Below are positions 1 through 12,582 of a DNA stretch of 35,917 nucleotides, in pieces. The stretch lies in the IMG/VR virus record IMGVR_UViG_3300050343_000065, positions 1 to 35,917 of that record. One strand, written 5' to 3'. The notes under the pieces were generated by a model. That model had not been told where the DNA came from. It did no database searches and saw only the letters and a program-made list of their open reading frames with translations. The stretch comes from a virus. Numbering within the stretch: position 1 is the first letter of the stretch; each line of letters opens with the position of its first letter. The position numbers were made by a program, and so were the translations under genes.

Positions 1-1233
1 CACCAGACAATTTATTTTATTATTGTTCTTCACACTCTGGTATGGGTGGAAAGATTGGTGTATTTGGTTCTACTTTAGAAGCTGGTTCTGGTCTTACAAT
101 AACAGGTAACAGTATTGCTGTAGATGCAACAGTTATTACAGGACAAACTAACGAAGGAACTGCTGACAATAATGATGTCATACTTATCTATGATGACTCT
201 GCTAGTGGATTAAAGAAACAAACAAGAAGTGCTTTCTTGTCTGGTACTGGTGTTGGTAATATGAATAGCTTTAATATATCAGATGGTTCTACATCAGAAA
301 CAATAAGTGATGCAAATACAATTACATTTAGTGGTACTTCTAATGAAGTAGAAGTAGCAGTAAGTGCAACAGACACAGTCACTATAGGACTTCCTGCTAG
401 TATTACAGCCAACCTTGTAGGTAATGTTACAGGTAATGTTACAGGTAATGTAACAGGAACTGCTGGAGGATTATCTTCAACATTAGCAGTAGGTAGTGGT
501 GGTACAGGATTAACTTCTTTCACAGTAGGTGACTTAGCTTACGCTTCTGCGACAACAACTATAGCTAAATTAGGCATAGGTACAGCAAACCAAGTCTTAG
601 CTGTCAATGCTGGTGCAACTGCTCCAGAATGGGTAGATGCAACAACAGGTGACATAACAGGAGTTACAGCAGGTACAAACATAAATGGTGGTGGAACTTC
701 AGGAAATGTAACAGTCAACTTAGATACAACAATTACAGGTTTATCATCAGTAACTTCTACTGCATTTGTAGGAGCTTTAACTGGTAACGCTACTACTGCA
801 ACAACTTTACAAACTGCTAGAACTATAGCTGGTAAATCATTCAATGGTTCAGCAAACATAACAATAGAAGCTGGAGATTTATCAAATGTATCTACTTCTG
901 GTGTAGCTGATGGACAAGTATTAGTTTATAACAATACTGCTAGTCAGTTTTGAACCAGGTTCAGTAGGTTCTGCAACAGCACTTATCGCTGGAGATTCAG
1001 ACTTTACATTATCAGATGGTGTTGCTAGTGGAATACACTACGAGTTAGACAACACAGATATGGCTGACTGGAATCAAGCAGGTGTAGTTCTATCTACAGC
1101 TGGTGGTATCTTCCAACACAATCAAGTACAAGCTGCTACATATACAGTACCAGCTAACACAGGTTCAGTTATGGCTGGACCAATCACAATCACAGGCACA
1201 GTAACGAATAATGGTACACTGGTAGTTATCTAA
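1..1233 (+). CDS. Tail fibre, C-terminal part (continues from base 35917)
   Basis: Codons run from the last base of the window through bases 1-2 and continue Pro-Asp-Asn-Leu-Phe-Tyr-Tyr-Cys-Ser-Ser-His-Ser-Gly-Met, closing the cupredoxin-like domain. The rest is Thr/Gly/Asn-rich beta-repeat fibre with 'GNVTGNVTGN' repeats near 420-460, followed by a C-terminal segment rich in hydroxyl residues. An in-frame TGA at 950-952 is created by a TTTT run at 946-949. With three Ts the frame continues Gln-Phe-Glu-Pro-Gly-Ser-Val-Gly through to TAA at 1231-1233, so I treat it as one gene with an indel. The stop overlaps the next ATG (TAATG). Confidence 0.85.
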
Positions 1234-1424
1234 TGGTAACTGTCAAAGTAAACACAATATCTAAAGCATCTGGCAATAATGTTGCTATGCAAAACTCTTT
1301 AAATTTAAAGTCTTATACAACTACACAGCGTAATGCACTAACAAGTGCTGCTGGAGATATAATCTATAACACAACAGATAGCAAAGTACAGTTTTACAAT
1401 GGCTCTGCTTGGAGTGATTTATAA
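1233..1424 (+). CDS. Short fibre attachment-module protein (63 aa)
   Basis: A small intact protein consisting almost wholly of a module repeated in the next genes: a short beta start with Asn-x-Ile, 'GNNVAMQNSLNLKSYTT', 'RNALTSAAGDIIYN' and a Trp-containing 'NGSAWSDL' end. Related segments occur in marine phage fibre proteins, where they precede variable tips. The start overlaps the upstream stop by one base and its own stop overlaps the next ATG, so translation is probably coupled. It may be an adhesin adaptor lacking a tip, or its tip may be supplied by the next gene. Function is inferred. Confidence 0.7.
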   Translation: MVTVKVNTISKASGNNVAMQNSLNLKSYTTTQRNALTSAAGDIIYNTTDSKVQFYNGSAWSDL

Positions 1425-2458
1425 TGTCAACTCTTGAAACTAACGCTATAGGTAAATACTCTGGTAACAATGTATCAGTTGATGATAGTTTAAATTTAAA
1501 GTCATACAGCTACAAGTGCTAGAAATGCACTGACATCAGTAGCTGGTGACACGATATACAACTCTGATGACAATAAAGTACAAGTATATACAGGTTCTGC
1601 TTGGGAAGATTTAGGTGGCTTAGTATCTTAATCTTTCATCACTGATAATTGGCTGGTGGTGGTGGTAGGAAGCGCATGATGGTGGTGGAGGAGCAGGAGG
1701 TTATATAAATAGTTACGCATCAGAACAATCTGGTGGTGCAACATCTATCTACAAAAATATTAACTTTTTTAGCACAAAATTATACTGTAACAGTAGGTGG
1801 TGGTGGTAATGGTGGAACTGTCTAGTACAGAGCAACAAATGGTACAATTCACAATATCATTATGTATGCAGTAGGTGGTGGTTATGGTAGGATTAAGTGG
1901 TGACACCTAACCAACGGAGGTTCTGGTGGTGGTGGTAGGTTTTCTGGTGGTAACTCTAATGGTGCAGTGGCAATAATTTTGCACAAGGATTTCCGGGTGG
2001 AAATCAACAATGCTTCACGGAGTTATCCAACTGGTGGTGGTGGTGGTGCAGGTGCTATTGGAGGAAACTGCTTCAAGCAGTACAGCAGGATGGAGATGGT
2101 GGTGTAGGTTTAGCATCTTCTATAACAGGTTCATCTGTAACAAGAGCTGGTGGTGGAGGTGGTGTGCAGCACCTGGACTACTGTAGGTGCAGGTGGAACA
2201 GGTGGTGGTGGATGGAAATCTACATCAGTGCTAATGGTGGTGCAGGAACAGTTAATACTGGTGGTGGTGGTGGTGGTACTACTTATGGTGGTAACTTACT
2301 GGAACTGGTGGAGCTGGTGGTTCTGGTAGTTATTAGATGGGCAACAGCAGATGGAACTATTACAGTTGCTGCAGGATTAACTTCATCAAGTACAACAGAT
2401 GGGTCTGATACAGTAGTAACATATTACAGCAGGAACAGGAACAGTGAGCTTTGCATAA
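1424..2458 (+). pseudogene. Glycine-rich tail-tip adhesin, frame broken (copy 2)
   Basis: Starts at ATG 1424 overlapping the previous stop. The first ~60 residues repeat the module of the 63-aa protein (NAIGKYSGNNVSVDDSLNLKSY, then RNALTSVAGD and GSAWEDLGG). A one-base shift occurs near 1505. After about 1650 the DNA is dense in GGT/GGA codons and encodes, across several frames, GGGGAGGY, 'YTVTVGGGGNGGT' and long Gly runs. This is the composition of glycine-rich phage adhesin tips that form polyglycine-helix sandwiches, as in T-even gp38. Its C-terminus, Gly-Thr-Val-Ser-Phe-Ala, ends at TAA 2456-2458. No single frame is open; sequence error in (GGT)n tracts or real decay are both possible. 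Confidence 0.6.
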
Positions 2459-3445
2459 TGAGTGAATTAAAAACAAATAAGATTTCAACAAATGACCAGA
2501 ACAATGTAGCAATAGATAATGCACTTGGATTAAAGTCATACATACAACTGCTAGAAATGCTTTAACTTCTGTTGCTGGTGATATGATTTACAATACAACT
2601 GACAGCAAGTACAAGTTCATAATGGTTCTGCTTGGGAAGATTAGGTGCAGGATATAGAAGTTTCCAAGTTCAATATCTTAGTAGTAGGTGGTGGAGGGCT
2701 GGTGGTTATAGTATGACACACAGAGCAGCAGGTGCAGGTGGTGCTGGTGGTTTTAGAACTCTACTACTGGGAAGAAACTGGTTATCCATTAACTAATCCA
2801 GAACCAAAATTTATTAGCTGCATTATCTACAAACTACACAATTACTGTTGGTGCTGGTGGCACAGGTGCAACTTATTCTTCATCATCTGGTGAAGATAGT
2901 AAATTTGGAGATATTGTTGGTGCTGTGTGGTGGTAGAGGTTCATCTGCATTTACTGGTAGAGCAGGTGGTGATTTCTGGTTCTGATAAAACACAAGTAGG
3001 TGGTGGTGGTGGTGGACAAATTGGAAGTTATGCTTCTGGAGATGGTGGAGGTGGTGGAGGTTCTTATGGTCAAGGTGGTGCTGGTATCTTCAAGAGGTGG
3101 TGGTGGAGGAGCTGGTGAGTCTCATCGGTTCTAATCACAACAGGTGGTGGCAGGTGGAAATCATCTTACTATAACAGGTTGCATGCTGTAACTGTATGCA
3201 ACATGGTGGAACTGGAAATAATAACGCAACAGGTGCAGCAAATACAGGTGATGGTGGTGGTTCAAATAGCTCTAATGGACAACACTGGTTAGCTGGTGGT
3301 TCTGGAATAGTAGCTTTAAAATGGCTAACAGCAGATGCTACAATAGGAGCAACTAGAACTGGTCTTACAGATGGTAATGTACAAACATCTGGCAGATTAT
3401 AGCTATATTGTTTTTACAGCAGGTACAGGTACAATCAGTATTTAG
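2458..3445 (+). pseudogene. Glycine-rich tail-tip adhesin, frame broken (copy 3)
   Basis: ATG 2458 overlaps the stop of copy 2. The N-terminal ~60 residues again carry the shared module (NKISTNDQNNVAIDNALGLKSY, RNALTSVAGDMIYNTTDSK, NGSAWEDLGAG), then a 'YLVVGGGG' entry into a Gly-rich tip with 'NYTITVGAGGTGATYSS' and many Gly-Gly-Gly blocks. The C-terminus 'GTGTISI' matches the ends of the other copies and stops at TAG 3443-3445. Frame shifts occur near 2540 and repeatedly after 2600. Likely receptor-binding tip if intact. Confidence 0.6.
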
Positions 3446-3464
3446 CTGATATAATAGGAGAGAT

Positions 3465-3856
3465 ATGGCACATTACGCATTTATAAACGATAACAACATA
3501 GTGACAGAAGTCATTGTTGGTATTAATGAGGACAATACAGAAACTTTACCAGATGGCTTTGCTGACTGGGAAGCGTGGTATGGAGATTTTAGAGGACAGA
3601 CTTGTAAAAGAACTTCCTATAACACCAGTAGCTAATACACATAGTGGAGATGGAACTCCTTTTAGAGGTAACTATGCAGGTATAGGATATACTTATGATG
3701 CAATCTAATGATGTATTCATAGCACCTAAACCTTATAGCAAGTGGATATTAGATGAAGATACTTGGTCTTGGAAAGCACCAGTTGATATGCCAGATGATG
3801 GTAAACAATATATTTGGAATGACAACACAGGAGCTTGGGAAGAACTAGCTGAATAA
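3465..3856 (+). CDS. Conserved marine-phage fibre-region protein (MAHYAF type), two indels
   Basis: Begins Met-Ala-His-Tyr-Ala-Phe-Ile-Asn-Asp-Asn-Asn after a good AGGAG site (3457-3461). Across three frames it reads through WEAWYGDFRGQTCKRTSYNT, NTHSGDGTPFRGNYAGIGYT and DVFIAPKPYSKWILDEDTW to a Trp-rich acidic end at TAA 3854-3856. I recognise this sequence type from marine phage tail-fibre loci; its function is not established, though a fibre-associated chaperone or cap is possible. Frame breaks lie near 3632 and 3705. About 130 residues if repaired. The stop overlaps the next ATG. Confidence 0.7.
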
Positions 3857-4315
3857 TGTCTAGTGAAATTAAAGTAGATACTATATCAGAAAAGACTTCT
3901 GCTAATGGTGTAGCAATAGATAGTGTTACATTAAAAGATGGTGAAGTAGTCGGAGCAATCTTAACAGGACTATGTTGAAAAAGATGTAGCAGTTACTTCT
4001 GGTACAACACTCACAATAGATTTAGCAAATGGAAACACAGGTTCAGTAACATGCAACATAACAGACATAGATTTTACAAATGTACCAACAGATGGTACTT
4101 CTTCATTTACATTAAAAGCAACACAGGATGGAACAGGTAGCAGGACTATGGCTATTAACGCTATTACAGTTAATGGTGGTGGTAATGTTACAGGACTAAC
4201 TCCAGGAGCTGCTGGTCTTACACTTAGTACAGGTGCAGCAGACATAGACTTAGTATCGTTCTTATTCTTTGATGCTTCAACACCCTTAATCAATTCATTA
4301 TTAGACTTTAGTTAG
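3856..4315 (+). CDS. Fibre-locus protein with shared N-terminus, one indel
   Basis: The N-terminus 'IKVDTISEKTSANGVAID' is the widespread marine-phage fibre lead-in related to the modules at 1233, 1424 and 2458. The remainder is a beta-rich domain (VTSGTTLTIDLANGNTG, FTLKATQDG, LVSFLFFDAS). A stop at 3974-3976 arises from a one- or two-base shift at about 3970; beyond it the frame Val-Glu-Lys-Asp-Val-Ala-Val-Thr runs open to TAG 4313-4315. About 150 residues if repaired. Likely a virion surface or tail-tip component; not homologous by eye to the Gly-rich tips. Confidence 0.6.
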
Positions 4316-4323
4316 GAGTTCAA

Positions 4324-5138
4324 ATGCCATTAGGTGCAACACGATTTGGATTTCAAGTGGTTAGCAGAAATGATGTGTTATTAGTTATTGCAGGTGGAGT
4401 GTTCATCTGGAATGATGGTGGCAACTTAGGCTGGTGGAGGTGGTGGTGACTTCGTATAGCAACTTTACAATACTGAAAGTGGTGGTATCTTTAAAACTCG
4501 TATGACAGTTGTTCTTGGAGATGAGTGGTCAAGTGGACAGTGCTATCAAACTTCAATGGATACTAGTATTTTTTCACAATCACTTCAACTAGGTGGGGGA
4601 ACTCTACAATGGTTCTAGTGGTTCTGGAGGTTCTGGTGGTGGAGCTTCTTTAGTGCTAAAAGTGGTGGTAGCAAGTACAGCTAATCAAGGTTTTGCAGGA
4701 GGTTCTAGTGCATCTCTTCTAAAGCAGGAGCAGGTGGTGGTGGAGGTGCTGGTCAAGAGTCATCTTCAACTAGGATTGGTGGCAATGGTGGGTTGGGATT
4801 CAATATTTATCATTACTAATGCACTGAAACTGTTGTGCGAATGTGTCTGGGTCAAATGTTCATATGCACAGGTGAGGTGGTCAATAGGTAGTGCTTGAAC
4901 TGGTCTACTGGAACAACAGGTTGGAGTAATGTGCTAAGGAATCACTGCAACATGGTGGAGTTTCAGGTGGTGGATCTGGTTCTGGTATCTACAGAACTAG
5001 GTGGCTCTGGATAGTAATATTAGTATCCACAATACAGAACATTAGCAGGTGGTGCTTCATCAGCTGGTGGAGAAACAAACAGTAGGCACAGAAAAATATA
5101 TTCAAATAGAAACAAGTGGTACAGTTACCTGGTCATAA
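4324..5138 (+). pseudogene. Glycine-rich tail-tip adhesin, frame broken (last copy)
   Basis: Starts MPLGATRFGFQ eight bases after the upstream stop, enters a 'LLVIAGGG' Gly-rich tip without the ~60-residue module of the other copies, and ends Thr-Ser-Gly-Thr-Val-Thr-Trp-Ser at TAA 5136-5138, parallel to the ends of the other tips. Many one-base breaks within GGT/GGA tracts leave no open frame longer than about 100 codons. Probably a further receptor-binding tip if intact. Confidence 0.55.
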
Positions 5139-5167
5139 ATACAAATCTATATGATAAAATTCATAGT

Positions 5168-5311
5168 ATGGATTATTTAATTGGTTTTCTTTTAGGTTAT
5201 TTTTTAAAAGAAGCTCTCGGATTTATTAAAAGAATAAGTGATTACGATTGGGATAATCGTATTTCATATCAAGATGAATGGGATTTCCTTACACAGGATG
5301 ACCTTCCATAA
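5168..5311 (+). CDS. Small membrane protein (47 aa)
   Basis: MDYLIGFLLGYFLKEALGF gives one N-terminal membrane segment, followed by an acidic, Trp-containing tail ending DDLP. No clear Shine-Dalgarno is seen. The TAA overlaps the next ATG (TAATG), so it is coupled to the following small membrane protein. It opens the lysis-like cluster; a holin accessory or spanin-like role is possible but unproven. Confidence 0.6.
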   Translation: MDYLIGFLLGYFLKEALGFIKRISDYDWDNRISYQDEWDFLTQDDLP

Positions 5312-5478
5312 TGACAGCTTCCAATGGCTTTACACAGAAAGAACTGAATCAAATGATATTTGATAAGTTAGATGACATAGATAAAAAGCTAGATGAGAAG
5401 TTAGATAAATCAGAATTTTATAAAGTATTAGGATTAGTTGCCACAGTTATATTAATTGTTGGTAGCCTAAGTATGTAG
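5311..5478 (+). CDS. XhlA-like coiled coil with C-terminal membrane anchor (55 aa)
   Basis: Residues 8-35 form a charged Lys/Asp/Leu coiled coil (KLDDIDKKLDEKLDK), and residues 37-55 a hydrophobic segment (VLGLVATVILIVGSLSM). This order and size resemble the XhlA/haemolysin-like small proteins of phage lysis cassettes. Start is coupled to the upstream stop. Role in lysis is inferred from architecture and neighbours. Confidence 0.6.
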   Translation: MTASNGFTQKELNQMIFDKLDDIDKKLDEKLDKSEFYKVLGLVATVILIVGSLSM

Positions 5479-7152: not shown

Positions 7153-8310
7153 ATGACAGAAGAACTAGGAAACAACTACTACAAATCAGGATGGTTACCC
7201 TCTATAGAGTTTGACCACAAGACTGGTAAGGGTGAGATTACTTATGTAGGTACTGACCCTGACTACGATAAGAAGTATGATTCTATATTAAAAGACTGGG
7301 GATTTGACCCTAAGTATTATGAGATTGAAGGTGCTGTCAAGGCATCTAGTTGGAATACACAGCTTAAAGGTGGCACAGTTGAAACCTTTTATGCGTTTAA
7401 AGGTGTAGTTAAAAGAAAAAATCCAGCATTAGATGAGTACTTTAATGAACTACTCAAGCTGTTTAAACACAAACCCCCATTAAAGAATAAAAAATATGGT
7501 GGTGACACTGCATTTATATTTACATTAGCAGACTGGCAATTAGGTAAAGCTGATTATGGCGTAGAAAATACCCTTGAACGCTACGAGGTTGCCCTACAAG
7601 AGGCAGTCAAACAGATTAAGGCACTGCGTAAGGCAGGTACAGCTATAGATGAGGTGTTCTTATTAGGATTAGGTGACCTCACAGAAAATTGTGACCAGAG
7701 CTTCTACTCCTCAATGCCCTTTAATCTAGAATTAAATCTATCTCAACAATATAGATTAGCTAGACAAATGATTATGAAAACTGTTGATACATTTCTACCA
7801 GTGGTTGACAAGATAACTCTTTGTGGAATCGGTGGTAACCACGGAGAAATGACAAGAGCTGCTAAAGGTCAGGTGTTATCTACAAGATTAGACAACTCTG
7901 ATATGATGCACTTTGAAGTATGCCAGGAGATTATGGCACAGAACAAGCGTTATAAAAATGTTAAAGTTATTTTGCCTACTGATTACCACCACCTTTTAGA
8001 AATAAAAGGTATAGGTGTAGCTATAACACACGGACATATGACTACTGGTGGTGCAGGACCTGAAGGTAAGATAATGAAATGGTGGCAAGGTCAGATGTTT
8101 GGGTGGTTGCCTAGTGGAGCTGCTGAAATTTTAATAACAGGTCACTATCATCATCCAAGATTATTGAAACAAGGCAAGAGAACTTGGATGCAGTGTCCAT
8201 CTATTGATGCGAGTAAAGACTTTACTGCTCGTACTGGTATGTGGAATGAGCCAGGTGTCTTAACTTTTACTATTAATAAAGATGGTTGGGATAATTATAA
8301 GATTGTTTAA
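7153..8310 (+). CDS. Calcineurin-like metallophosphoesterase (385 aa)
   Basis: All motifs of the family are present in order: Asp-Trp-Gln near residue 126, Gly-Asp-Leu-Thr-Glu-Asn near 174, Gly-Asn-His-Gly-Glu near 227, His-Gly-His near 293 and Gly-His-Tyr-His-His near 330. These form the two-metal centre. The N-terminal ~115 residues form a separate, unrecognised domain (SGWLPSIEFDHKTG). Related phage proteins act as nucleases or phosphoesterases in DNA metabolism; the substrate here is unknown. Last rightward gene; its TAA (8308-8310) overlaps the stop of the convergent SET gene within one GTTTAAAC palindrome. Confidence 0.85.
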   Translation: MTEELGNNYYKSGWLPSIEFDHKTGKGEITYVGTDPDYDKKYDSILKDWGFDPKYYEIEGAVKASSWNTQLKGGTVETFYAFKGVVKRKNPALDEYFNELLKLFKHKPPLKNKKYGGDTAFIFTLADWQLGKADYGVENTLERYEVALQEAVKQIKALRKAGTAIDEVFLLGLGDLTENCDQSFYSSMPFNLELNLSQQYRLARQMIMKTVDTFLPVVDKITLCGIGGNHGEMTRAAKGQVLSTRLDNSDMMHFEVCQEIMAQNKRYKNVKVILPTDYHHLLEIKGIGVAITHGHMTTGGAGPEGKIMKWWQGQMFGWLPSGAAEILITGHYHHPRLLKQGKRTWMQCPSIDASKDFTARTGMWNEPGVLTFTINKDGWDNYKIV

Positions 8311-8594
8311 ACAGAGTACATACTGTATTTGACAGTGAGTTCTGTACCTGCTGGAATAAATTCCTCTGTAAATAAATAGCGTGTCATCTTACCTGTAATC
8401 TTACAGTTAGGTGTTTCGCTATGATTAATAAAACCACCAAGTGGGGTACGCAGTAGGTTGTTATCTTCACCAAACCAATGTGCGTGTGTCATACCTAGTG
8501 ACTCGTAAGGTTCTAAATCTTTTAAGGTAAACAAACCTAACCCTTCTACCTTACTTGGTTGAATAGTAAGGTAGTCAGGTAAAGGTCTATACAT
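8307..8594 (-). CDS. Minimal SET-domain protein (95 aa)
   Basis: SET signatures are present: Ser-Lys-Val-Glu-Gly-Leu-Gly-Leu-Phe (residues 14-22), Asn-His-Ser-x-x-Pro-Asn-Cys (57-64) and Gly-Thr-Glu-Leu-Thr-Val-Lys-Tyr (83-90). These form the S-adenosylmethionine and catalytic site of protein-lysine methyltransferases. At 95 aa it is smaller than even the compact viral SET proteins (about 120 aa), lacking pre- and post-SET parts. It could methylate a host or virion lysine; target unknown. Start ATG overlaps the stop of the 57-aa gene upstream. Confidence 0.75.
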   Translation of the reverse strand: MYRPLPDYLTIQPSKVEGLGLFTLKDLEPYESLGMTHAHWFGEDNNLLRTPLGGFINHSETPNCKITGKMTRYLFTEEFIPAGTELTVKYSMYSV

Positions 8595-10443: not shown

Positions 10444-10470
10444 AGCCTCTAGCAATAGAGGCTTTTCTAT
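10444..10470 (+). terminator. Rho-independent terminator facing right, inside leftward genes
   Basis: AGCCTCTA (10444-10451) and TAGAGGCT (10456-10463) form a perfect 8-bp stem with a GCAA tetraloop, then TTTTCTAT on the + strand. On the - strand no U-run follows. It therefore terminates rightward, antisense transcription, though it lies between two leftward genes. Confidence 0.65.
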
Positions 10471-10709
10471 TCACTATCTTCATCTATTAATTGATATAAT
10501 CTTTGTCTTGATATATCTAGTATTGTAGCCATATCAGTAAGTGGAACACCTACATTACGACCATTGTTTATTAGTTCTGTCCTCTGTTTCTTTAGAGTAT
10601 TAACTAAGTCACTAGCTTCCTGTATCAGGTAAGCTACATTATGCAATTCTTCTAAGACATTTTTCTTATTGTCCATAGATTGCAATAGATTATTAGTGCG
10701 TTCATTCAC
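10467..10709 (-). CDS. Small coiled-coil HTH protein (80 aa)
   Basis: Residues 15-50 are helical and charged (ELHNVAYLIQEASDLVNTLKKQ). Residues 55-76 read as helix-turn-helix: VPLTDMATILDISRQRLYQLI, like the C-terminal recognition half of phage Cro or small regulatory proteins. Likely DNA-binding regulator or accessory replication factor. It is the best candidate to read the genome's palindromic sites, but that link is only inference. SD GGAGAAG lies just upstream. Confidence 0.6.
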   Translation of the reverse strand: MNERTNNLLQSMDNKKNVLEELHNVAYLIQEASDLVNTLKKQRTELINNGRNVGVPLTDMATILDISRQRLYQLIDEDSE

Positions 10710-11596: not shown

Positions 11597-11835
11597 TATT
11601 CTCCTTCTCCTCTGAACATATCCTCAAAACATTCAGGGTGTACACCAGTGAGTAGCTGTTCTCGTTCTGCTCTGCTATGCTCTGGGAATATATCCTGAAT
11701 CAATCTTCTCTGATGTCTTGGGGTTTCTGTAAACTCTTTATACTTAGCTCTGTCAACAACAACAGCACCTGTTTCCCTGCAATGTATACAGGTAGGTGTC
11801 GTTACTACTAACGAAGTATTCAGTTCCCAATCCAT
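11596..11835 (-). CDS. Actinophage-type Cys-rich protein (79 aa)
   Basis: Start at ATG 11835, overlapping the upstream TAA, is preferred to an in-frame ATG at 11868 inside the upstream gene. Contains Cys-Ile-His-Cys near residue 16, a central helix 'RRLIQDIFPEHSRAEREQLLTG' and a terminal His-Pro-Glu-Cys-Phe. The pattern CxxC, 'IQDxFP', 'REQLLTG', 'HPECF' is one I associate with small proteins of actinobacterial phages. Probably zinc-binding. Function unknown. Confidence 0.65.
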   Translation of the reverse strand: MDWELNTSLVVTTPTCIHCRETGAVVVDRAKYKEFTETPRHQRRLIQDIFPEHSRAEREQLLTGVHPECFEDMFRGEGE

Positions 11836-12050
11836 TAGACTTGTTCTTCTGTAAAAGGCGACAGACAATAGATACTTGGTCTGTGTCCATTGAAGGGTAG
11901 TCCATTTGTATCTGCCTCTACTAGCGTATCAACAGTTGTTACTGCCTCATCTAGCGTGACATCACTGTCAAAATAAAAATCTACTGTTAGTATATTTTCA
12001 TCTCGCTTCGCATTAACATCTACAAATTCGTAGACATCTGATTCTTTCAT
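11835..12050 (-). CDS. Hypothetical acidic protein (71 aa)
   Basis: Acidic beta-alpha protein (ENILTVDFYFDSDVTLDEAV). Good site GAAAGGAAAC before ATG 12050. First gene after the structured spacer 12051-12285. Family not recognised. Confidence 0.6.
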   Translation of the reverse strand: MKESDVYEFVDVNAKRDENILTVDFYFDSDVTLDEAVTTVDTLVEADTNGLPFNGHRPSIYCLSPFTEEQV

Positions 12051-12067
12051 AAGTTTCCTTTCAATAT

Positions 12068-12092
12068 GCTTCTATGTTTAAACATAGATAGC
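12068..12092 (-). repeat. 16-bp palindrome centred on GTTTAAAC
   Basis: CTATGTTTAAACATAG (12072-12087) is a perfect palindrome, extended by imperfect GCTAT/AGC flanks. It immediately follows the 3' arm of the 12089-12194 stem on the - strand. A second GTTTAAAC lies exactly 200 bp away at 12276-12283. Confidence 0.6.
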
Positions 12093-12194
12093 TTGTAACA
12101 CACAAGTATGAGATAGTTCGTACTTGTTAACCCCTACAACCTCGCTCTTGGAAGTAAGAAGTACTCGTAGTTCTGTCTTATGTGCTACAAGCTA
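12089..12194 (-). ncRNA. Candidate structured RNA in a gene-free spacer
   Basis: On the - strand TAGCTTGTAGCACA (12194-12181) pairs over 14 positions with TGTGTTACAAGCTA (12102-12089), perfect except for one G-U pair that would be an A-C mismatch on the + strand, so the RNA is likelier leftward. Inside are a hairpin CAAGTA/TACTTG with a 12-base loop (12103-12126) and a CTAC/GTAG arm (about 12134-12170), giving a three-way-junction-like fold. It is not a tRNA: no T-arm and no 7-bp acceptor end. No open frame. Function unknown. Confidence 0.45.
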
Positions 12195-12275
12195 CCTATT
12201 GACTTGGGTGTACTCTTTACAGAGGCAAGGTTTAGTAAGTCAAAATTTCCCCTCGCTCACCCTTATAGATAGCTC

Positions 12276-12283
12276 GTTTAAAC
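12276..12283 (-). repeat. GTTTAAAC palindrome after the 98-aa gene
   Basis: Lies two bases beyond the stop of the 98-aa gene, flanked by ATAGATAGCTCG, a near copy of ATAGATAGCTTG at 12084-12095 beside the other palindrome. A strong stem is not evident at this copy. Confidence 0.55.
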
Positions 12284-12285
12284 AA

Positions 12286-12582
12286 CTAACCTAGCTTGGC
12301 TTGTTGTTTAGTTAATGAATCAATCAACTTAGTAAGTTCTGTCTTGGCTTTCTTTGTACTAAATTCGCCTGACATATCTCGTAGTTGATTTACAGTTTCT
12401 TTCATTGTATCTAACCTACCTTCTGCATAATCTGCGTAGTCGTGTGCTTCATCAGCACTATTCTTCGCATCATAGGCATAGCTCTTAGCCTCTTGAACAT
12501 TATCTTCTGCTTGTTCTATCTCGCTATAGAGTTCCTCTAATAGGTCGGATACAGTTGTAACTGTATTACTTTCTTCATTCAT
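12286..12582 (-). CDS. Acidic coiled-coil protein (98 aa)
   Basis: Almost entirely helical: 'LLEELYSEIEQAEDNVQEAK', then an Ala/Asp/Tyr-rich heptad stretch (YAYDAKNSADEAHDYADYAEG) and a basic C-terminus. AAAGGAA precedes ATG 12582. No family recognised; possibly a structural or DNA-mimic-like small protein. Confidence 0.55.
   Translation of the reverse strand: MNEESNTVTTVSDLLEELYSEIEQAEDNVQEAKSYAYDAKNSADEAHDYADYAEGRLDTMKETVNQLRDMSGEFSTKKAKTELTKLIDSLTKQQAKLG

Follow-up and report, generated by a model that had tools for sequence, protein, structure and literature searches.

A modular array of exchangeable structured RNA cores, carried by a conserved adaptor stem between early genes of related phages

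A gap among leftward genes and the parts of its array

The window, meaning the whole stretch of DNA analyzed here, is a virus record of 35,917 bases with a GC content of 36%. Positions 12051-12285 form a gap bounded exactly by the stop of a 98-aa gene and the start of a 71-aa gene, both on the - strand (Table 1). As the first-pass annotation had stated, this gap among leftward genes is free of frames; apart from a 56-aa TTG frame on the + strand (12124-12294), no ORF of at least 50 aa extends into it. The family of the 71-aa gene neighbours arrays of the kind described below in 37 of 128 loci. The AlphaFold model of the 71-aa protein was poor, with a mean pLDDT of 57.7.

Folding of the - strand of the gap gave -70.7 kcal/mol and a z score of -4.37, and none of 200 shuffles was equally low, compared to a z score of -1.96 and 6 of 200 shuffles for the + strand. 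For the hairpin cassette alone, the z scores were -5.98 (-) and -3.54 (+). The 14-bp closing stem reported earlier (12089-12102/12181-12194) was present, as the inner part of a 22-bp stem (12198-12177/12106-12085). G-U pairing had been claimed for the - strand only, and the 22-bp stem indeed contained three G-U pairs that are possible on that strand alone. ARAGORN found no tRNA in the window, in line with the earlier view that the RNA is not a tRNA. The proposed three-way junction did not hold up in the same way; it is just one predicted fold of the core, for whose own folding covariation gives no support. Covariation, strand-specific G-U pairs and the sense orientation to the flanking genes strongly support the candidate non-coding RNA on the - strand, and we regard it as practically certain that the gap RNA is real. 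A decayed gene was rejected as an explanation: the gap is without a long frame, and 0 of 108 cassettes lay wholly inside an ORF bearing a ribosome-binding site (RBS).

Table 1. Features of the array in the window and of the genes discussed
Feature	Position	Strand	Remarks
98-aa gene, alanine-zipper-like	12286..12582	-	upstream of array
GTTTAAAC, lineage-specific motif	12276..12283	.	5' boundary of array in RNA sense
R' arm, GAGCTATCTAT	12265..12275	-	can pair with cassette 5' arm (11 bp), closing M_L
Module M_L, linker, pseudoknotted	12199..12264	-	10 homologues
M_L P1	12262-12258/12210-12206	-	
M_L P2	12256-12251/12230-12225	-	
M_L P3	12224-12222/12215-12213	-	
M_L pseudoknot	12242-12237/12205-12200	-	
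Cassette 5' arm (L), TAGGTAGCTTGTAGCACATAAG	12177..12198	-	22-bp stem with 12085-12106; stem covaries in relatives
Core module M4, own fold uncertain	12107..12176	-	9 homologues
Cassette 3' arm (R), CTTGTGTGTTACAAGCTATCTA	12085..12106	-	stem with 12177-12198
16-bp palindrome, CTATGTTTAAACATAG	12072..12087	.	around second GTTTAAAC, overlaps end of R arm
71-aa gene	11835..12050	-	downstream of array
80-aa HTH protein	10467..10709	-	PHROG 686, E 4.3e-7

In the RNA sense, the array reads R', linker, L, core and R. The ATAGATAGCT[T/C]G repeats noticed earlier, at 12084 and 12265, are arms of this array. L has two alternative partners, R' and R (the latter over 22 bp, closing M4), and both pairings were predicted when parts of the gap were folded; the prediction for the whole gap picked the longer pairing with R. 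The M_L fold predicted from the parts was the one without the pseudoknot. When M4 of the window was aligned with 8 further sequences, RNAalifold supported the closing stem only.

The 16-bp palindrome reported beside the RNA was present. The two GTTTAAAC sites, at 12076 and 12276, are 200 bp apart as had been observed, and this exact spacing was rejected as a coincidence without meaning because the gap spans 191 to 467 nt in relatives. Nor do the sites belong to the RNA family. Of 134 distinct cassettes, only 19 have GTTTAAAC at a distance of up to 300 nt and 32 have it anywhere in the fetched locus, so we regard it as a separate, lineage-specific motif. The window contains 16 copies against 1.29 expected, 7 of them in non-coding stretches, and GTTTAAAC was the top enriched 8-base palindrome in 24 sources of at least 9 kb. 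It is enriched in the clade of the window, where it marks the array ends, and rare in or absent from most distant relatives. It is often placed centrally in a hairpin whose complementary arms vary (window 11027, 13522 and 14351; L023, L028, L152, L188, L308 and L352); at least 6 contiguous Watson-Crick pairs were found at 34 of 214 distinct sites, compared to about 2.4 per run with shuffled arms. This hairpin would be a further element, whether a dimerising loop in the RNA or an operator in the DNA, and the 80-aa HTH protein is a possible reader of GTTTAAAC. In locus L136, CTCCGGAG is over-represented about 100-fold, with four copies in 14 kb.

Elsewhere in the window, the + strand of 954-5400 showed GGTGGT repeats, glycine-rich like those of tail-fibre genes, in short frames only, which points to a gene that is broken or frameshifted, or to a faulty assembly. 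A small SET-domain protein, here in a phage, was found on the - strand at 8307-8594 (PF00856, E 1.8e-7).

A conserved stem encloses interchangeable RNA cores

Relatives were fetched via the terminase, the single-strand-annealing protein, the 98-aa neighbour and the 71-aa neighbour. In relatives with both neighbours, the gap measured 191-467 nt and contained between one and three hairpin cassettes, built as GTAGGTAGCTTG...CAAGCTATCTAT, whose arms agreed and whose interiors often differed. Together the arms make up an adaptor stem, TAGGTAGCTTGTAGCACATA / TGTGTGTTACAAGCTATCTA, that is conserved along with its G-U pairs. The single copy of the first-pass annotation is an RNA as suggested, and belongs to a large modular family. 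Viral contigs scanned with the 5' arm as sole pattern yielded at least 120 stretches. With the 5' pattern as the only criterion, a complementary 3' arm scoring 19-20 of 20 lay within 220 nt in 126 of 128 distinct 5' arms with enough sequence, compared to control partner scores of mostly 12-15; in the control, 20 of 384 placements reached at least 18, a number that probably reflects real 3' arms within segments drawn at random from the same loci.

In the stem alignment (A1), which consists of 40 dissimilar cassettes picked by the author as cluster representatives for length and variety, 10 of 21 pairs were changed on both sides (46 cells) and 98.9% of cells were paired. None of 500 shuffles reached any of five measures, and slid versions were 21-43% paired. 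Among these 40 cassettes the outer nine pairs were near-invariant and the inner pairs covaried, a pattern that would fit sequence recognition of the outer half and a need for pairing alone in the inner half; this contrast is to be taken with care because the search pattern favours the invariant part. Cassettes were listed if at least 17 of 22 pairs formed, and a strand was kept if its G-U cells equalled or exceeded its A-C cells; the pairing rate and strand preference of the list are therefore partly built in, and the 5'-arm-only partner search and the count of gene directions given below serve as independent tests. Clustering took 129 of the 134 cassettes (60-165 nt) and gave 80 clusters by a crude k-mer rule, a number in which some cassettes count with both strands (L013, L093/L086).

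A covariance model built from the 40 aligned cassettes (R1) matched 20 of the 23 larger contigs. Among the 31 loci obtained through the 71-aa protein it matched 23, and among the 100 sources fetched first, many of which do not cover the region, it matched 15. Two terminase relatives, the contigs of L021 and L062, were without a model match over their whole records, which indicates that phages can do without the array. No model match was found in the 83-kb contig of L202 either, and this locus was taken as a chance match to the pattern, as were 28 of 44 further loci with neither modules nor related proteins. The scan of cellular-genome contigs for the arms gave 5 matches, none with a 3' arm within 200 nt, and the arms were rejected as a cellular-genome sequence.

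The stem encloses dozens of different cores, several with proven covariation, and cores within one array differ from each other. Core M1 (24 distinct sequences) combines a hairpin with a pseudoknot NGGT/ACCN. In M1, 18 of 32 pairs were changed on both sides, the variable pseudoknot pair being UA in 14, AU in 6 and GC in 4 sequences; 39 of 101 columns were invariant, 18 of these being fixed by the search pattern. Some copies of M1 sit in unrelated stems (L136, L149, L159), and the core is therefore a unit of its own. The pieces between cassettes are structured modules too, bounded by the same arms in the order R-linker-L-core-R. The frequent linker M2, which has a covarying hairpin, reads AGTARGA-stem-CCCTGTT-stem-RACYGAA, and its 40 distinct copies had 175 of 200 stem cells paired, compared to a mean of 119 and a maximum of 137 with shuffled partners. 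Linker M_L (10 sequences) showed compensatory changes in P1, P3 and the pseudoknot, and two of its five measures failed against shuffles (further pair types, 469/500; pairs changed on both sides, 30/500); two matches to an M_L-like regular expression (L061, L114), coding or chance, were excluded from its alignment (A5). The check in related phages proposed with the first-pass annotation thus revealed compensatory changes in the adaptor stem, M1 and M_L.

Module M_P has an inner stem that varies from phage to phage between TACC/GGTA, AACC/GGTT, GGCG/CGCC, GTGC/GCAC, ACTAC/GTAGT and GTACAG/CTGTAC, pairs that were read by eye because alignment A3 was out of register, and it possibly forms a pseudoknot GGAA/TTCC. 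The variants L095 and L222/L256 were left out of the alignment.

A T-arm-like hairpin (such as TAGGTTCGAATCCTA) was observed in the cores L187:3225-3366, L233:1688-1843, L208:2785-2890 and L167:9252-9353. These cores are tRNA look-alikes, and in those of L187 and L233 an extended arm replaces the anticodon arm. ARAGORN found 0 tRNAs in 34 cassette loci, those with T-arm-like cores included. The palindrome GTGTACAC recurs in otherwise different cores (L245, L247, L013, L222, L265, L266, L219), and in L219, L245 and L247 one core bears GAACGTTC, GTACGTAC or GTGTACAC at the same position. A kissing-loop reading of the core palindromes was set aside as weak: 10 of at least 10 bp were seen, compared to a mean of 4.8 and a maximum of 12 in shuffles.

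Gene context, exchange between phages and possible explanations

Among 108 cassettes, 97 were co-directional with both neighbouring genes, 10 with one and 1 with neither. This count needs RBS-bearing frames on both sides; it leaves out 26 of the 134 distinct cassettes, which either showed no preference for a strand or lacked qualifying ORFs within 1500 nt on both sides. The early genes around the array run in the same sense as its RNA.

Comparison of close relatives showed that nearly identical phages exchange both cores and linkers. Flanks of 200 nt were 97-100% identical yet gaps only 29-56% identical in L135, L095 and L231, and in L150 compared to the kind found in the window; other near-identical pairs retained the same gap (96-100%). 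L287, L288 and L291 have the first cassette in common and a different second core in each. A single core occurs near different genes, and a single gene follows different cores.

A blastn search of 10-16 kb against named phages found no near relative, and blastn of the cassettes gave three chance-level matches in phages and none in plasmids. Capsid relatives at about 48% include actinobacterial phages, and the best among the terminase matches listed were Streptomyces phages at about 24-26%; WhiB was found in 0 of 23 contigs. Judging by such contigs, the array phages may be marine. Phages of Ca. Actinomarinales with a similar GC content have been described (PMC7771536).

The explanation that we favour, tentatively and at somewhat less than an even chance, is that the gap is a slot of a modular array of exchangeable RNAs that are transcribed with early genes, released when their stems are cut and act in trans, probably as decoys of host proteins. 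The array would be transcribed as part of an early transcript, and its stems would be cut by a host double-strand-specific RNase. Phage RNase III was sought in 23 contigs and found in none, so the processing would rest on the host. The compact cores would remain and work in trans, most likely tying up host proteins as decoys or inhibitors, with RNA-reading defence proteins as the foremost targets. Their rapid exchange would mirror the differing defences of hosts, and the conserved arms would supply the homology for exchange. The decoy reading best explains the replacement of whole cores in near-identical phages and the presence of a single core near unrelated genes. Against it stands the proximal half of the stem, which is nearly invariant in sequence, beyond what an RNase III site needs.

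RNase III processing elements between early genes are known for T7 early mRNA. The stems may likewise be cis-acting processing or stabilising elements, with cores that tune the cleavage, stability or translation of the next gene. The position of arrays between co-directional genes (97/108) agrees with this, a 22-bp stem is a good double-strand substrate, and the pairing of the 5' arm with R' or R is a possible switch. We nevertheless consider a purely local role unlikely, though worth serious attention, because the cores keep pseudoknots with compensatory changes and, in M1, invariant loops, and because the same core stands beside unrelated genes and the same gene after different cores. The compact pseudoknotted cores, their tandem arrangement and their location before genes would also suit a set of riboswitches or leaders that sense metabolites or the state of the host and control the downstream early genes. 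The gene families downstream of a single core vary, however, and complete cores are swapped ahead of one and the same gene, which makes sensing leaders improbable.

Conserved inverted arms, variable interiors and exchange between genomes could also point to an element acting as DNA, such as a mobile element's terminal inverted repeats or attC-like hairpin sites of recombination, whose interiors would be irrelevant. The attC sites of integrons are hairpins with conserved arms and a variable centre, occur in arrays, and work as folded DNA with an integrase. The array shares the conserved arms and variable centre, but its arms differ from the attC core, and tyrosine integrase (PF00589) was found in 0 of 23 contigs (controls positive, 14/14). 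Furthermore, the arms are not identical inverted repeats, G-U pairs are kept on the gene-sense strand, compensatory changes occur in arms and cores, and M1 recurs in unrelated stems. An explanation at the DNA level is thus very improbable.

Relation to known phage RNAs and meaning of the array

The window had 0 matches in Rfam 15 at the gathering score, and searches of 5 and 17 further loci likewise gave none. At E<=5, the gap matched only CRISPR-DR42, on the + strand, with 17.6 bits compared to a gathering score of 40. Type III antitoxins (ToxI, CptI, TenpI) are tandem repeats of one short RNA, whereas the cores of an array differ mutually. The ToxN family (PF13958) was found in 0 of 23 contigs, and also in 0 of 14 controls. 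In phage PhiTE, non-coding pseudo-ToxI repeats evolve by expansion and recombination and serve as RNA mimics against a defence protein (PMC3475682). The array resembles them in consisting of phage-encoded, recombining RNA units, with a mimicry that is here only presumed; as presented in that source, pseudo-ToxI is one RNA type with a known toxin target (PMC3475682). The array, in contrast, has core types by the dozen within a long stem that they share.

Racr, likewise a small RNA in phage genomes, inhibits immunity by mimicking CRISPR repeats (PMC10651486). Going by the account given there, its mimicry is of CRISPR repeats (PMC10651486). The array cores are varied, and the gap reaches the gathering score of no CRISPR family in Rfam. 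GOLLD and ROOL are structured RNAs borne by phages, ROOL with pseudoknots, but are portrayed in the source as single RNAs of roughly 600-800 nt or more, compared to array cassettes of mostly 60-165 nt with exchangeable cores (PMC12286853). The abiF antitoxin RNA motif RF03085 also consists of tandem structured motifs upstream of a gene, and acts on a protein (PMC12373285). Unlike that motif, the array comes without an Abi_2 gene (PF07751, 0 of 23 array contigs; one control was positive, below the cut-off) and without an Rfam match. Marine and phage RNA motifs are listed in PMC2864571, and in the portions of that paper drawn on here none is described as a constant stem with exchangeable cores. 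We found such arrays undescribed in the open literature searched, a scope that excludes most subscription papers and all preprints. To our knowledge, the architecture of the array is new within this literature; its function is a proposal only.

Phage anti-defence RNAs in the literature examined are single types. We suggest, more speculatively than the decoy role itself, that these phages may possess an RNA equivalent of anti-defence gene islands, in which the adaptor stem displays and releases an open-ended library of small structured RNAs and lets them recombine. Dozens of cores, some pseudoknotted and some tRNA-like, would each disable a different host protein. The common adaptor is a search handle, by which the stem interiors list the structured RNAs under selection in these phages, and each interior is a candidate inhibitor or aptamer. 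Exchange between phages at the level of RNA would become directly testable. These findings suggest that these viruses trade small functional RNAs as other phages trade genes.
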